From: Ruminococcus sp.
Lineage (GTDB): Bacteria; Bacillota; Clostridia; Oscillospirales; Ruminococcaceae
Reading direction: 5' to 3'
Assembly (NCBI GenBank): GCA_014799805.1
Contig: JAAVHJ010000010.1
Location: forward strand, 1 to 45,963
Length of the DNA: 45,963 nt
Positions 4,423 to 40,653 of the stretch are shown in pieces (the stretch's first letter is position 1; each line of letters begins with the position of its first letter). The translations under genes and the position numbers were made by a program. Below the pieces are notes generated by a model. That model searched no databases. It worked only from the letters and a program-made list of their open reading frames with translations, and had not been told where the DNA came from.

Positions 4423-5385
4423 CTATTTTAAATACAGCTCCAAATGGTATCTTGGTCTATGCTTTGTTTCTAAATAAATTTTGCCGATATATTCGCCAAC
4501 AATGCCAATGCCTAATAATTGCAAGCCACCAATTCCCCAAACTGACACAGCCAGAAATGTCCAACCAGTAACTGTATAACCCTGAAAATGTCGCACTAAA
4601 ATATACACTAACATGAATAAACTAATCAAAAAAATAGCAATTCCTAAACTAGTAATCATTCGAATTGGCTTGACAGACAGCGAAGTGATTCCCTCAAATG
4701 CAAAATGCAACATTTTTTTCAATGGATATTTTGATTCACCTTGTAATCTTGATGCACGGGAATAATAAACTTTTCCTGTTTGAAAACCTAACATTGGCAC
4801 TAATCCACGAAGAAATAAATTTACTTCTTCATAGCCAGATAATTCTTGTAACACTCTTTGGCTCATAAGCCGATAATCCGCATGATTATAAACCAATTCC
4901 ACACCAATTGCATTCATAAGCTTATAATAGCTTTGTGCAGTGATTCTTTTAAAAGCCGTATCTGTTTCCCTATCACTGCGAATGCCATAAACAATTTCAC
5001 AACCTTGCTGATATTTTTCTAACATCGCATCAACTGCATGAATATCATCTTGCAAATCTGCATCCATAGAGATTACAACATCGCATTCTTGCTGAACAGT
5101 CATTAATCCAGCAAGCAATGCGTTCTGATGTCCGTAATTTCTGGAAAGTTTAATTCCACGAAATAAACGATTTTCTTCATGTAACAATTCAATTTGATTC
5201 CAAGTTTTATCTTTAGAACCGTCGTTAATAAAAACAACATGACTATTTTCAGAAATCTGATGATTTGCTATTAAATTCTGCATTTTGCTTCTTAACTTCT
5301 GAGCTGTAACAGGCAAAGCCTCCTGTTCATTATAACAGGGAATCACGAAATATAAAATTGGAATTTCAGGGTGTTTCACTTCCAT
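4423..5385 (-). CDS. GT2 polyprenyl-phosphate glycosyltransferase (DPM1/GtrB-like)
   Basis: A 320-residue membrane glycosyltransferase predicted to move a sugar from a nucleotide donor to a polyprenyl phosphate at the cytoplasmic face. Family marks: VIPCYNEQEALP near the N-terminus, FINDGSKDKT, the metal-binding DADLQDD region, GIRSDRETD and the QGESKYPLKKM segment. Two C-terminal membrane helices (about 232-255 and 268-292) flank a short loop, then GEYIGKIYLETKHRPRY, typical of GtrB/ArnC/DPM1 relatives. The stop of the upstream SGNH gene and this start overlap (TAATG), so translation is coupled. Products made by such enzymes feed wall teichoic acid or O-antigen decoration or protein O-glycosylation. 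The sugar cannot be read from sequence. Confidence 0.92.
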   Translation of the reverse strand: MEVKHPEIPILYFVIPCYNEQEALPVTAQKLRSKMQNLIANHQISENSHVVFINDGSKDKTWNQIELLHEENRLFRGIKLSRNYGHQNALLAGLMTVQQECDVVISMDADLQDDIHAVDAMLEKYQQGCEIVYGIRSDRETDTAFKRITAQSYYKLMNAIGVELVYNHADYRLMSQRVLQELSGYEEVNLFLRGLVPMLGFQTGKVYYSRASRLQGESKYPLKKMLHFAFEGITSLSVKPIRMITSLGIAIFLISLFMLVYILVRHFQGYTVTGWTFLAVSVWGIGGLQLLGIGIVGEYIGKIYLETKHRPRYHLELYLK

Positions 5386-7046
5386 TATGAAATAATCGGA
5401 GCTGTTGGATCAGCATCTACAACTTCAGGCTCCGTAGTATACTCAGGAATTACATCAGTAACTTCTGACTTATCTTTTTTTACAAATTCATATTTTTCGC
5501 CTGCACCTTCAAAAGCGGAATATATTAAAATTTGGGTAGCATCTTCTGCATCTAAAATGTCGTCTTCATTTACATCAGTACGTTTTTGTTGTTCTTTTGT
5601 TAATACATCTTCTAATTTTGCACCAACATTTGCGGAATGTCGTAATACAAGCGTAGCATCTTCAGCATCAACTACACCATCTCCATTTGCATCACCTAAT
5701 AAAAAATTATTGACATTAGTTGTACTTGTTTCTGTTGGGTCTGTATTGAAACTAGAAGTTGTACTGGTTTCTGTTGGTTTTGAATCAGAAGTTGTGGTTG
5801 TCTCTGGTGGGTCTGTATTTAAATCAGATACAGTTGTAGTTGTTTCTGTTGGAGTTGTATTGAAACTAGAAGTTGTACTTGTTTCTGTTGGCGTTGTATT
5901 TAAATCAGATACAGTTGTAGTTGTTTCTATTGGGGTCGTATTGAAATCAGAAGTTGTGCTTGTTTCTGTTGGCGTTGTATCTAAATCAGATACAATTGTA
6001 GTTGTTTCTGTTGGTGTTGTATTGGAACTAGAAGTTGTGCTTGTTTCCGTTGGCGTTGTATCTAAATCAGATACTGTTGTAGTTGTTTCTGTTGGCGTTG
6101 TATCTAAATCAGATACCGTTGTAGTTGTTTCTGCTGGGTTTGTAGGAACTGGATTTGTTTCAGTAGGGGTTGTGTCATCAATTTTTTCGCCCTCTGGCAA
6201 TTCAGCTGCGGAAATAATAGCTTCTGCTATCCAGGCATGTCCTTCCGCACTAGGATTCATTTCTAAATTATTTAGATTAGTATACCGATAAGCTTCACCC
6301 TGAAATGCAGAATAAGCATCTATTAAAATGCAATTCGCTTGTTCTTTTGTGAATGTTTCCAGATAATCATTAAAACAACTTTTTACAGCCAATCCTGCTG
6401 GATTCAGAATGCTATTATATGCCGCTTTACGTTTTACACTCAAGTTATCATAATTTTCAATATTATCTAACAAATTATAAACTGTCTGATATACAATTGT
6501 TGCATTTTGATATTGTGAAAGATTTTCCGTAATAGCTTGAAAATTTGCGGTTGCAGATTCACGATTCGCTTTAATTGCACTTGCCATTTTATTAGAATAT
6601 GGTATCAATTGCATTTCGTCAGAAAATCCATAATCTGTTAAACTTGCTGTAAATACATCAAGAAAATTTTCAAATCCAAATTGTGTCATAAATTCATTTG
6701 CAGTTGAAATAAATTCGTCCATAATATCATGAATACCAACTGTTACAATAATAACATCTGCTTGTGATAAAGCTTCTTGTATCTGTGCATCATTGATACT
6801 AAGTAAAATATCTTCTGTTGTATAATTATCTTGTGCAAAGTTTTGAATTTCCAGACATGTGTAATCCTGAATTAATTGTACATAGGATTTTTCACCATCA
6901 GGAAGACCTGCTCCTGTAGAAATACTATCACCAATCACAACAATATTTGGTGTTTCTTGGGCATGTGTAGGCACTAATACACCGCTTATATTCAGCATAG
7001 CCGTGATTGCTGTTACAAATGCCACTAATTTTGTGCTTTTTTTCAT
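5385..7046 (-). CDS. Secreted SGNH hydrolase with Thr-rich linker and C-terminal dockerin
   Basis: A 553-residue cellulosome-type enzyme. Order: signal peptide (1-30, ending THAQ), SGNH/GDSL hydrolase domain (about 33-285), Thr/Ser/Pro linker repeats (about 289-447), dockerin (about 449-522) and a short acidic tail. The nucleophile is Ser41 in IGDSIS; SAEGHAWIAEA carries the likely catalytic His. The usual Gly-x-Asn-Asp block appears as VGIHD, so the oxyanion Asn is not obvious. The dockerin has two calcium loops, DANGDGVVDAED and DVNEDDILDAED, so cohesin binding is expected. The frame extends to 7076, but GGAGG eight bases upstream selects the ATG at 7046. Substrate is unknown; acetyl-xylan or other carbohydrate ester is the usual guess. 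First gene of an operon with the glycosyltransferase. Confidence 0.92.
   Translation of the reverse strand: MKKSTKLVAFVTAITAMLNISGVLVPTHAQETPNIVVIGDSISTGAGLPDGEKSYVQLIQDYTCLEIQNFAQDNYTTEDILLSINDAQIQEALSQADVIIVTVGIHDIMDEFISTANEFMTQFGFENFLDVFTASLTDYGFSDEMQLIPYSNKMASAIKANRESATANFQAITENLSQYQNATIVYQTVYNLLDNIENYDNLSVKRKAAYNSILNPAGLAVKSCFNDYLETFTKEQANCILIDAYSAFQGEAYRYTNLNNLEMNPSAEGHAWIAEAIISAAELPEGEKIDDTTPTETNPVPTNPAETTTTVSDLDTTPTETTTTVSDLDTTPTETSTTSSSNTTPTETTTIVSDLDTTPTETSTTSDFNTTPIETTTTVSDLNTTPTETSTTSSFNTTPTETTTTVSDLNTDPPETTTTSDSKPTETSTTSSFNTDPTETSTTNVNNFLLGDANGDGVVDAEDATLVLRHSANVGAKLEDVLTKEQQKRTDVNEDDILDAEDATQILIYSAFEGAGEKYEFVKKDKSEVTDVIPEYTTEPEVVDADPTAPIIS
5704..6165 (-). repeat. Alternating 14/13-residue linker repeats inside the SGNH gene
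   Basis: Two related units alternate: type A (TTPTETTTTVSDLD, 14 residues) and type B (TTPTETSTTSSFN, 13 residues), giving a higher-order unit of 27 residues (81 bp). Copies differ at a few positions and the array decays toward the dockerin. It is coding and in frame throughout. Confidence 0.9.
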
Positions 7047-7095
7047 GATTAAAAACCTCCTCTTAATCTTGTGCATATGTTTTTGCTACAGTTTT

Positions 7096-12616: not shown

Positions 12617-12659
12617 TAAGATGAAGCAAAACGATAAATTTTAGAAAGGAGAATCTATT

Positions 12660-13166
12660 ATGAATATTATTTTTACAGGATTAATATTTTTGATGATTAT
12701 TATATTACATATCATTGCATTTATTTTCATCATAAAAAATTTTTTGCAGATTGATGAAGTTTCTGTAAAAAAGTCACTAAAGAATACTAAAGAAGAACCT
12801 GTTTTGACTTCGATAATAATTGGTTTCATAGCACTTTTGGCGATTTTTACAGGACTACCACTTCTAGTACGTACCTCAATTTCTGGCGCAAAGCTATCGT
12901 TTTCAACACATCCAGCCACACTCTTTAACAAAACTATTTATATATGTAATTTCATCAAAGGTCTGATATTTCTTGAATCAGCAATATTTTTACCTTATGG
13001 ACTAAATTTACTGCTCTATAAATTATGGTATAAAAAAACAGGACTTTCAAAACGGATAATGCTTCCTAGTATCATTATTGGGATTATAAATTTTATACTG
13101 TGTGTATTCTGGATAATTGTAGAAGGTTATATAAACGACTGGGCAACATGGCCATGGGAATGGTGA
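12660..13166 (+). CDS. Small polytopic membrane protein of unknown function
   Basis: A 168-residue protein I do not recognise. It has four hydrophobic segments (about 2-26, 48-70, 92-116 and 133-155), a charged loop rich in Lys and Glu between the first two, and an aromatic C-terminus ending in WPWEW. No enzyme motif is visible. The SD AAAGGAG sits nine bases before the ATG and is embedded in AGAAAGGAGA, which is exactly complementary to the CU-rich stretch of the candidate small RNA at 33879-34005. It is monocistronic, between the mfd terminator and a hairpin shared with pfkA, and has a full-consensus promoter, so it is expected to be transcribed strongly. Confidence 0.8.
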   Translation: MNIIFTGLIFLMIIILHIIAFIFIIKNFLQIDEVSVKKSLKNTKEEPVLTSIIIGFIALLAIFTGLPLLVRTSISGAKLSFSTHPATLFNKTIYICNFIKGLIFLESAIFLPYGLNLLLYKLWYKKTGLSKRIMLPSIIIGIINFILCVFWIIVEGYINDWATWPWEW

Positions 13167-28948: not shown

Positions 28949-29589
28949 TAAATTTAAATGCTGTTGACAGAACACAAGCTTTTAGATATATGGGGTTTCA
29001 CGGTGAACCAGATGAAAAATTTAACAAGCTTGCTGACACTTGTGAACAAAAATTATTATCTGCGGTAAAGCCCAGATACTGTTGGCAATTATTTCAAAAA
29101 CAAGATATCAAATTTTTATTACTAGGACAAGATATTCAGAAGCATTTAGAATATTGTGAACAAGTGATTTTATTCTGTGCGACATTGTCACAAAGTACTG
29201 ACACTTGCATTAGACTTGTACAAACAAATGATGTCTTAGCTGGCATGATGATAGATGCTATGGCAAGTGCATTCACAGAACAATTTTGTGATAGTGTAGA
29301 ATCAGAAATATTAAATCATAATTTTCAACATCAATATGCTACATGGCGATTTAGTGCAGGTTATGGCGATATGCCTTTGTCTATACAAGATGATTTTTTG
29401 AAATTACTTCATGCACAAAAACGTGTTGGCGTTTGTGTAACAGATAGTGGCTTAATGATTCCTAGAAAATCTGTTACGGCAATTATTGGCTTATCAGATA
29501 CACCTGTTAAAAAATCAAAAAAAGGCTGTACAATTTGTAAATTACGGCAAAATTGTCCCTATCGTGCGAAAGGAGAACATTGTAATTGA
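28945..29589 (+). CDS. Stand-alone MetH reactivation (activation-domain) protein
   Basis: A 214-residue protein resembling the vitamin B12-dependent methionine synthase activation domain, which reductively methylates inactive cob(II)alamin with S-adenosylmethionine. In E. coli this is the C-terminal part of MetH; here MetH (next gene) lacks it. Supporting marks: LSQSTDTCIRLVQTNDVLAGMMIDAMASAF in the N-terminal half and RFSAGYGDMPLSIQDDFLKLL with LMIPRKSVTAIIGLS in the second half, as in the SAM-binding fold. An extra Cys-rich tail (CTICKLRQNCPYRAKGEHC) is reminiscent of a small metal site. It is coupled by overlap to metF upstream and metH downstream. Confidence 0.88.
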   Translation: MINLNAVDRTQAFRYMGFHGEPDEKFNKLADTCEQKLLSAVKPRYCWQLFQKQDIKFLLLGQDIQKHLEYCEQVILFCATLSQSTDTCIRLVQTNDVLAGMMIDAMASAFTEQFCDSVESEILNHNFQHQYATWRFSAGYGDMPLSIQDDFLKLLHAQKRVGVCVTDSGLMIPRKSVTAIIGLSDTPVKKSKKGCTICKLRQNCPYRAKGEHCN

Positions 29590-33878: not shown

Positions 33879-34005
33879 TAAAAATAACAGGGCTGAAATA
33901 CAGCCCTGTCGGGAAATAAAATCAAATCAAATCAAACTTTGTGTAGAACAAAAGAAAGGAGACAACAAAACGAGTGTTAATCATACGGGGTTCGTATTTA
34001 ACACT
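33879..34005 (-). ncRNA. Candidate small RNA with anti-SD stretch
   Basis: A free-standing minus-strand unit with its own promoter (34012-34040) and terminator. Predicted 5' end at 34005, seven bases after the -10, which is exactly the first base of a hairpin: AGTGTTAA and ATACG pair with CGTAT and TTAACACT (33973-34005, two-base bulge, five-base loop). The middle is single-stranded and U/C-rich, with UCUCCUUUCU (33962-33953), a perfect complement of AGAAAGGAGA-type SD sites, and three UUUGA repeats. The 3' end is a 9-bp perfect stem, ACAGGGCUG/CAGCCCUGU (33909-33887), and UAUUUUU. The layout matches trans-acting regulatory RNAs of Firmicutes that block SD sites. No ORF of note lies within it. 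Confidence 0.65.
33887..33909 (-). terminator. Terminator of the candidate small RNA
   Basis: ACAGGGCTG-TATTT-CAGCCCTGT on the minus strand, followed by TATTTTTAT. On the plus strand it is followed by TCGGGAAAT, so it is directional. Confidence 0.75.
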
Positions 34006-34011
34006 GGTATT

Positions 34012-34040
34012 ATGATAACACAAAAAAATGCATTCGTCAA
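34012..34040 (-). promoter_or_regulatory. Promoter of the candidate small RNA
   Basis: TTGACG (34040-34035), 17-bp spacer and TATCAT (34017-34012) on the minus strand. Confidence 0.65.
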
Positions 34041-38025: not shown

Positions 38026-40653
38026 TTAATTTTGAATTGGGAAATCTTTGTCTGAAAGTAATTGTACAATTAATTTCATAATATTCAAAGAATCTGTAAA
38101 GTCTACCTTTCCATTTTGATCAGCATCAGCATTCTTGAAGCCCTTTGATTCTAAAGTTCTTTGTCCAAGAATTGTCTTATTCATTGTGATAATATCAAGA
38201 ATATCAACTGTGTTATCCTCATTTGCATCACCCCAGAGAATATCTGTCGTATTAGTATTATCTTCTGAGTTTGGTTCTGTGGTAGGTTCCGGTGGTTTCA
38301 CAGGATTTCCAGTACCAGAAGTTGTGCCATAGACAATACCACAACCAACAGTTGACATATAAACTTTGCCAAATTCGTTCATATCACCAACTAAGAAATT
38401 TCCGTTACCAGTACCACCATAGAGATGTTCTGTATTAATACAAGCCCATGTTTTACCACCATCTGTTGAACGATAAATGCCCTCAGGGTCAGTTTCAGAC
38501 GGTTTGCCATAAATAAACAGCGTATTTACATCGCCTTCTTTTTCAGGTGCACCATAGCCAATAGATTTACAATAAAATACATCAGATTTTTCAACTTTTG
38601 TTCCACTCTCCGTGATGATATATAATCCATTCCAACCTAAAGCCATTGCAATGGTATCTTTTGTAATATATGCCAAATCGCCAGTATGGTCGCATTCGTC
38701 ATATTTATCAACAACGGTTTTCTGGAACGTTGCACCATAGTCTGTGCTGATATAAAAATCATATTGTGCATCATCAAGTGTAGGTTCTGTTTTAGACATA
38801 TCAGAAGACCAATAAGAATTATATTTAATTCCTGAACCGTAAACAATAGCAGGATTTTCAGGGTCAACAAGTGGATATGTTGTTTTGGAACCCTCTAAGC
38901 CAGTTGATTCTTTCCAAGTCTTTCCAAAATCATCTGTATAAACAATTGCCGCATTGTCACCACTTGCTTTCATGAATCTATAAGTGCCATCATCAAGCTG
39001 TGTAATCGCAAGTTTTCCGCCACCATTCGGAACATTCAAATCTTCCCATGTTTTACCAGCATCAAGGCTATAATACCCTTTTGCTTCATGTTCGCCTACA
39101 CGTGCCATGACTTTTGTATCAGACGGACAATATGCAATTGCAGACGATGAGCCGATATTAGGCTGATATTGCTGCGGAATTTCAGTATCACTTTCATGAA
39201 TAAAGCCGTCATAGTCGCCGATTACAGAATAATTCAAACCATCTGGAACGCTGACAAAATCCAGTGCAACAACTTCTTCTACGCCGTCAGGCTGGAAATA
39301 AAATTGTACGCCTCTTTCGTCCCAGACATTATCGCAAGCAAAAACGCCATTACCAGAAGTCATTAAAATTTTATCAGGGTTTCTTGGGTCTATTAAAATA
39401 CCACTGCCCCAGTGACAAGCCTTGCCATAAATCCAATCATAGCCGTTGGTATCAATTGGATTTGATACAAAATAGCAATCATCTGTATATTTGCCTTCTT
39501 GTTGCCCTGGTGTAATATTCTGCCATGTTTCGCCGCCGTCTGTGGAACGATAGAAATAATCGCCCCATGCAATAGAATCATCTGTCCATTCTTCTGAAAA
39601 CCACTGGTCAGACCATACACCACAAGTTCTTGCAACCATTTTATTCGGGTCGTTTTTATCAACAGTAATCATACCAACAGCACTATCTGTGACAGAAAGT
39701 TTTGTAACTTCGCCAGTTTTTGTATTATATTTATAAGCACCGCCAGCAGAACCAGAAAACGCAAGCCCTGCAATATAAGAGAAAAACAAATTGCCATGAT
39801 TATCACTGGTAATAGAAACAGGATAATTTGCATTTGGCAAATCTGCTGATAATTCTGTAAATTTATCATCGTTTACATCAGCAACATGAATATTTGTTTG
39901 CCCAGTCACAGAAGTTCCGACATAAACTTTGCCATTTTCAATATGAATTGTGCCAATTCCGTTTTGTTCGTTATATTCTTTCGATTCTGTCCCTCTTACC
40001 ATGTGGTCAGTCCACATAGGGAATTTGAGTGATTCTGTAAATAATCCCAAATCATCATAGCCTTTTACACATGCCCAGGTTTTACCGCCGTCTGTAGATT
40101 TAATCAATGCAGAATCGCCAGCTGTTACATCACCGCCAGCATAAATCACATCAGGATTGTCAGGGTCAATTGCAATTGGTTCAGAACATTCACGTCCGTC
40201 ACCGTTGCCATGCACTTGAATCATGTCAGTGACATCAGATTCTGTAAAAGTTTTACCGCCATCTGTTGTTTTGAAAATCACAGTTCTTGCACCAGAGAAA
40301 TAAGCACAGCCACAGAGAAAATAAACGGTATTATCATCTGTTGGGTCAATTGCCATACCCTTAACGCTGAGCAGACCTCTGTCTTCTTCATTAAGAAAAT
40401 CAAAAATCTGCACCCATCTGTTTTGGTCATAGTCAAATTTGTAAGCACCACCAACGTCTGTACGGAGATACATTTCTTTTTGTCCCGTAGAAATACCAGA
40501 TACAAAGCCACCGCCGCCAATGCATAACGTATCCCAAGTATAACTATCTTCCAAAGATGCTGTACTTTCTGCAACGCTTGCTAAACTTGTTGCTGTTGAA
40601 CAAAGCATTGTGAAACTCATTGCCGTAGCAATTACTTTTTTCCAAATTTTCAT
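38026..40653 (-). CDS. GH74 xyloglucanase-type enzyme with dockerin
   Basis: An 875-residue secreted enzyme. Order: signal peptide (1 to about 30), GH74 double seven-bladed propeller (about 38-780), a short Pro/Glu/Thr linker and a C-terminal dockerin (about 805-870). GH74 marks are GGGGFVSGISTG near the start, repeated STDGGKTW/STDGGETW Asp-box turns and MTSGNGVFACDNVW. Dockerin calcium loops are DANEDNTVDILD and DADQNGKVDFTD. GH74 enzymes cut xyloglucan, and a dockerin implies assembly on a scaffoldin cohesin; no scaffoldin is in the window. AAGGAGG precedes the ATG by ten bases. This dockerin differs clearly from that of the SGNH protein. Confidence 0.96.
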   Translation of the reverse strand: MKIWKKVIATAMSFTMLCSTATSLASVAESTASLEDSYTWDTLCIGGGGFVSGISTGQKEMYLRTDVGGAYKFDYDQNRWVQIFDFLNEEDRGLLSVKGMAIDPTDDNTVYFLCGCAYFSGARTVIFKTTDGGKTFTESDVTDMIQVHGNGDGRECSEPIAIDPDNPDVIYAGGDVTAGDSALIKSTDGGKTWACVKGYDDLGLFTESLKFPMWTDHMVRGTESKEYNEQNGIGTIHIENGKVYVGTSVTGQTNIHVADVNDDKFTELSADLPNANYPVSITSDNHGNLFFSYIAGLAFSGSAGGAYKYNTKTGEVTKLSVTDSAVGMITVDKNDPNKMVARTCGVWSDQWFSEEWTDDSIAWGDYFYRSTDGGETWQNITPGQQEGKYTDDCYFVSNPIDTNGYDWIYGKACHWGSGILIDPRNPDKILMTSGNGVFACDNVWDERGVQFYFQPDGVEEVVALDFVSVPDGLNYSVIGDYDGFIHESDTEIPQQYQPNIGSSSAIAYCPSDTKVMARVGEHEAKGYYSLDAGKTWEDLNVPNGGGKLAITQLDDGTYRFMKASGDNAAIVYTDDFGKTWKESTGLEGSKTTYPLVDPENPAIVYGSGIKYNSYWSSDMSKTEPTLDDAQYDFYISTDYGATFQKTVVDKYDECDHTGDLAYITKDTIAMALGWNGLYIITESGTKVEKSDVFYCKSIGYGAPEKEGDVNTLFIYGKPSETDPEGIYRSTDGGKTWACINTEHLYGGTGNGNFLVGDMNEFGKVYMSTVGCGIVYGTTSGTGNPVKPPEPTTEPNSEDNTNTTDILWGDANEDNTVDILDIITMNKTILGQRTLESKGFKNADADQNGKVDFTDSLNIMKLIVQLLSDKDFPIQN

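Follow-up and report, generated by a model that had tools for sequence, protein, structure and literature searches.

A family of predicted small RNAs in Ruminococcaceae carries an invariant copy of the 16S rRNA anti-Shine-Dalgarno tail and has counterparts in viral contigs

The minus strand of the window (the whole stretch of DNA analysed, 45,963 nucleotides from Ruminococcus sp.) carries a sigma-70 promoter (34012..34040, minus strand), composed of the -35 element TTGACG at 34040-34035, a 17-nt spacer and the -10 element TATCAT at 34017-34012, which has a TG-like extension before it. The predicted small RNA downstream is ~126 nt long (33880..34005, minus strand), with its +1 at about 34005. 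It opens with a 5' hairpin that starts at the predicted +1 (33973..34005, minus strand), runs through an invariant 41-nt stretch (33939..33979, minus strand) and a U-rich linker (33911..33938, minus strand), and closes with an intrinsic terminator (33880..33910, minus strand), in which a hairpin at 33910-33886 is followed by ATTTTT. Within the invariant stretch lies a universal 21-nt core, GUCUCCUUUCUUUUGUUCUAC (33943..33963, minus strand), and within that core CUCCUUUCU (33953..33961, minus strand), which equals the anti-Shine-Dalgarno (anti-SD) tail of 16S rRNA when 16S 3' ends are compared. The 125 nt from 34004 fold with -29.4 kcal/mol (z = -4.54; 0/200 dinucleotide shuffles as good), and folding of the RNA predicts UCUCCUUUCU at 33962-33953 to be unpaired. 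By itself, the promoter scan of the window is weak support for an RNA gene (11 sites versus 8.1 +/- 2.8 in shuffles); terminators are in excess (5 versus 1.4 in shuffles). The promoter, the 5' hairpin at the +1, the CU-rich middle and the terminator that a preliminary description had placed here are all present on the minus strand in those places, and the locus it noticed is real. Elsewhere in the window, 38026-40653 and 5385-7076 (both minus strand) encode large secreted proteins whose C-termini look dockerin-like by eye, as in fibre-degrading Ruminococcus.

To trace the spread of this RNA, we searched with 167 bases of the locus and recovered it in 32 of 37 genus genomes, its own included; outside the family there was one weak match, which aligns over the promoter and hairpin part only. 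With up to two mismatches, a 28-nt version of the core is present in 33 of the 38 genus genomes (32 exact), among them all 12 that are at least 90% complete, and the five genomes without it range in completeness from 57 to 86%. The RNA is normally single-copy: 32 genus genomes have a single exact core site each, and the more distant genus member G035 has a single mismatched one. Across the family, the 21-nt core is found exactly in 89 of 297 genomes and with up to two mismatches in 93, the latter matches falling in 82 of the 220 good family genomes and in 32 of 126 family genera; carriers with names include, among the 80 listed of at least 120 matching stretches, R. flavefaciens strains and R. 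albus 8. A 26-nt core occurs in 22 of 394 order genomes, all of them among the 42 that belong to the same family, and in none of the 352 order genomes outside it, while a class scan of 391 genomes found the core in seven, four of them exact, each inside the family, and three outside it with two mismatches. One bacterial contig (L138) has two core copies ~250 nt apart, the second without a promoter by our rule. The RNA belongs to a family absent from Rfam 15: the whole window gave nothing at the gathering threshold for the RNA, its region gave at best a sub-threshold 26.7 bits on the other strand with E up to 10, and in searches of 8 viral loci and of 12 host and viral loci only tRNA matched. 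In open-licence papers, we found no described Ruminococcus small RNA, anti-SD mimic or phage element that is the same as this core-bearing RNA. The idea that promoter, hairpins and pyrimidine run came together by chance is refuted by this conservation across genus and family genomes; no point is left in its favour, and we give it practically no credence.

The architecture is conserved together with the core. In 30 genus loci, taken as best BLAST matches, promoter, hairpin, core and terminator align in register, and 41 consecutive positions are identical in all 30 loci first fetched; in G035 (locus L035) this longer stretch is not kept, and only its inner core is found. By rule, a promoter precedes 151 of 163 host sites (five are without upstream sequence and seven fail), with a spacer of 17 nt in all 151 when 16-18 was allowed and with a -10 element that is exactly TATAAT in 140; TTGAC-N18-TATNNT likewise stands upstream in 29/29 exact-core loci, which make up all but one of the 30 family loci fetched. 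A terminator hairpin with a T run was found in 112 of 117 host loci, in the form of 83 distinct stems. Among 122 distinct host upstream regions, the 5' helix shows 44 distinct basal stems and averages 7.3 bp with its own strands versus 5.9 bp with strands swapped between loci, a comparison that takes the loci as they stand, with kinship among them uncorrected. Both hairpins thus vary in sequence without losing their pairing, and the core that they enclose stays the same; the mean unpaired probability of this core is 0.78 versus 0.55 for the whole RNA (126 host RNAs). As judged from alignments and predicted folds, the hairpins covary, and the core is invariant and mostly unpaired. The automatically derived structure in an RNA model (R1) lacked the greater part of the 5' hairpin, so the homologue searches were made without it.

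The U-rich linker is also kept across loci, unlike the UUUGA repeats within it, which are confined to the window's own species and near relatives. The repeats had been proposed as a second pairing module, but TTTGATTTGA is present in just 4 of the 30 genus loci, and such a module is therefore not conserved. Nor is there a conserved neighbour gene among 120 loci, the largest family of neighbours being present at 23 of them, as expected for a trans-acting RNA. The conserved stretch might also be read as coding for a small hydrophobic peptide (MINTRFVVSFLLFYT... in the window), given that 27 of 30 genus loci (23 with ATG) have an in-frame start, uninterrupted by a stop, ahead of the core. However, such a start is present in just 52 of 117 wider host loci (27 ATG), the core has zero synonymous changes, the start is itself part of the 5' hairpin, and the upstream sequence of the viral copies described below is unrelated. 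That the start is not kept beyond the genus, and that synonymous change is lacking, weakens this reading, which we hold to be very improbable.

The match to the ribosome is exact, CUCCUUUCU being identical to the anti-SD tail in the 16S 3' ends GGATCACCTCCTTTCT of the family genome G145 and of R. flavefaciens ATCC 19208. The core is consequently complementary to AGAAAGGAG and matches strong Shine-Dalgarno (SD) sequences. Pairing of the core with 16S and 23S rRNA did not stand out, with a best contiguous match of 14 (G-U allowed) versus 12-18 for shuffled cores. The pattern AAAGAAAGGAG-N4-10-ATG, that is, the 11-nt exact complement followed by ATG, occurs at 127 places in 38 genus genomes versus 2 for the reversed pattern, and SD sites suited to the core are thus common. 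The genes behind these places include no dominant family, the largest having 4 members among 83 distinct ORFs (clustering covered 91 of the 127 places, with G006 and G011 entering via loci L245 and L256 only). Searches of the same 38 genomes for longer complements, using 20-mers complementary to both core halves with up to three mismatches, gave no excess of off-locus sites, with 21 versus 42 for the reversed pattern in one search and 9 versus 13 in the other, and the flanks of 213 SDs show no adaptation to the core (34% of permutations fit equally well). No conserved target emerged from the SD search, the clustering or the flank test. With no gene family standing out, no excess of long complements and unadapted SD flanks, pairing at SD sites is plausible but does not resolve into a regulon, and the missing conserved target and unadapted flanks count against a trans-pairing role.

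The same applies to the two genes that were singled out as targets in the preliminary description. The sequences it pointed to do occur, AGAAAGGAGA at 12643-12652 before the membrane-protein gene at 12660 and GAAAGGAGA before metH at 29568, but in both cases the complementarity is at chance level. The window has 5 SD matches with at most one mismatch, including the locus of the RNA itself, where 2.67 would be expected, and as many as 5 are seen in 15 of 100 shuffles. The duplexes with the core (-15.8 for 12660 and -14.6 for metH) lie above the 1% quantile of -19.3 obtained from 3000 random 45-nt windows. Both are ordinary SDs, two among the common SD sites, and not remarkable.

More extended complementarity is seen at a few individual sites. 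Near-matches of the core with one or two mismatches number 11 in 9 family genomes, versus 4 for the reversed pattern, and we looked at 8 of them, leaving out those in G617, G555 and G553. Three of the eight are antisense to ribosome-binding sites, those of a GntR-type gene in G653 (L385), a DegV-type gene in G173 (L387) and an unnamed gene in G643 (L388), each of which is complementary to the core over at least 20 nt with one or two mismatches. Given their small number, which does not exceed that of the reversed control, and the bias towards SD sequences, we regard these ribosome-binding sites as target candidates rather than as evidence. The other five comprise a site in a coding frame of G683, a variant copy of the RNA in G467 and three tandem sites in G572. 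There (L384, G572:C15:111500-114500), three tandem units of ~80 nt are situated between two co-directional genes, around 112994-113172 of the contig, and each unit holds a site, oriented like the flanking genes, that is complementary to nearly the whole 27-nt core, with a predicted duplex energy of ~-38.5 kcal/mol. The arrangement, present in 1 of 297 genomes, resembles a natural sponge or a leader under strong control.

These results also bear on a different role for the core, namely as the binding site of a protein, or of the ribosome-assembly machinery that normally acts on the 16S 3' tail, in which case the RNA would titrate such a factor with no pairing to mRNA. This role would fit the core's identity with the 16S tail, the absence of any letter change between bacterial and viral copies, and the fact that no conserved targets were found; on the other hand, the invariant stretch is much longer than the 9 nt common to 16S, and the three complementary sites of G572 speak for pairing. 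We consider titration in place of mRNA pairing rather unlikely. Nevertheless, an invariant stretch of at least 21 nt exceeds the needs of a short seed and hints at some additional constraint, for instance a protein, and the unchanging 3' part of the core along with the lack of conserved targets leaves room for a protein partner.

The core is also found in viral contigs. A 20-mer of the core matched 11 of them, and a 19-mer matched 27 (L181-L207) versus 1 for the reversed 19-mer; 23 cassettes are left once four identical pairs are removed. Their shared layout begins with a structured 5' part, after which come the core, a short linker and a hairpin rich in GC; outside the core they bear little resemblance to the bacterial RNA, and the core-bearing RNA has the same sense as in bacteria. 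Besides L182, 13 of 24 viral loci have a -10-like box upstream (TATAAT-like or looser) and the others none by that rule, so the viral promoters are clear only in part, as in L194 and L200. In 20 of the 27 contigs, ARAGORN places a tRNA gene within ~100 nt downstream of the core (Met 16, Leu 2, Ser 2). A mismatched 1:72 pair and an A11:U24 pair are marks of initiator tRNAs. The 13 tRNA-Met genes that we examined (10 distinct sequences) have 1:72 mismatched (G.A or C.A) and A11 opposite U24, with the anticodon loop CUCAUAA in 10 of the 13 and three G-C anticodon-stem pairs in 2 of the 13; they look like initiator tRNAs. Examples directly behind the core-bearing RNA are L202:7749-7825 (minus strand) and L192:6096-6170 (plus strand). 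Where loci were read by eye, terminase-like genes follow the cassette; in L188, the terminase-like part has matches among annotated terminases of Firmicutes phages. L196 and L197, which hold the shortest form of the RNA, lie beside integrase- and repressor-like genes and have a -10 box 6 nt before the core, their own terminator with a T tail, and no tRNA. When named phages were searched with 35 nt of the core, only weak matches came up (best E = 1). We also considered whether the viral core is the ribosome-binding site of a gene on the opposite strand and rejected this, as a start codon follows in some contigs but not in others, for example L185 and L187 (by eye).

The position of the cassette just ahead of tRNA and terminase-like genes in several viral contigs, where the 3' hairpin is without a T tail, would suit an element that acts in cis, as a leader or in antitermination or processing of the tRNA and late-gene transcript, with the bacterial RNA a relative that has lost such a role. 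Against this improbable reading, most bacterial copies (112 of 117) finish with a terminator and no fixed gene stands downstream of them, and the viral L196 and L197 have their own terminator with a T tail and no tRNA. We think that the phage versions probably serve the same activity as the bacterial RNA. A more speculative possibility, which we advance tentatively, is that phages have taken over a translation-initiation RNA found clade-wide and that, together with an initiator-type tRNA ahead of late genes, it shifts initiation from host to phage messages. Such phages would have their own copy of the anti-SD RNA, its core unchanged and its surroundings different, in one expression unit with the initiator-type tRNA.

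Firmicutes possess other C-rich anti-SD sRNAs, such as RsaE/RoxS, FsrA and LhrC, whose UCCC motifs are located mostly in loops. The Ruminococcus RNA resembles them in its Hfq-poor host and in C/U-rich single-stranded regions seemingly aimed at the SD; it differs in that it matches no Rfam family. Closer in architecture are the streptococcal csRNAs, in which, according to PMC3091779, two stem-loops flank an unpaired SD-complementary region with a conserved stretch; in the same paper, they usually have an anti-AUG (CAU in 53 of 61) and are proposed to block initiation in trans via the anti-SD. csRNAs are present in several copies per genome and depend on CiaR. The Ruminococcus RNA likewise has two stem-loops around an unpaired anti-SD region, but there is usually one copy per genome, its sigma-70 promoter is close to consensus, and its core is invariant over a far longer stretch and is without a conserved CAU, there being no CAU in the 41-nt invariant stretch. 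Phages are known for small RNAs that influence host regulation (PMC12197685, PMC4104026). Compared with such phage sRNAs and anti-sRNAs, the viral core RNA is a copy or mimic in the bacterial sense, not an antisense sponge, and is situated before an initiator-like tRNA.

Taking these observations together, we favour with moderate confidence an RNA that acts in trans to prevent ribosomes from binding at SD sites, csRNA-like but single-copy and stand-alone, and belonging to the Ruminococcaceae-type family. Trans-acting pairing is favoured by the conserved unit of promoter, hairpin and terminator, the unpaired invariant core and the identity of CUCCUUUCU with the 16S tail, and further by the common SD sites, the absence of a fixed neighbour gene, the G572 sites and the viral core held between two hairpins. 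The RNA has what would be expected of a trans-acting base-pairing sRNA, namely its own promoter and terminator without a fixed cis neighbour and a conserved, accessible pairing region. From sequence, we infer that the RNA is transcribed, pairs with mRNA and represses. The strong sigma-70 promoter would start the RNA, and the 5' and terminator hairpins would protect its ends and hold the single-stranded core open; the core, which may be understood as a copy of the 16S anti-SD tail plus an invariant 3' extension, UUUGUUCUAC, would pair with SD regions AAAGAAAGGAG of mRNAs and keep 30S subunits off, with less translation as the outcome. The trans-acting small RNA with an exposed anti-SD that was originally proposed fits the anatomy, conservation, covarying hairpins and unpaired core seen here; both named targets and the UUUGA module are not supported.

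In the rumen and gut, Ruminococcus and related bacteria rank among the major degraders of fibre, and an unchanging copy of the 16S anti-SD raises the question of whether an RNA can compete with the ribosome for strong SDs genome-wide. With phage copies beside initiator-like tRNA genes, one could test whether phages use RNA to steer translation initiation.
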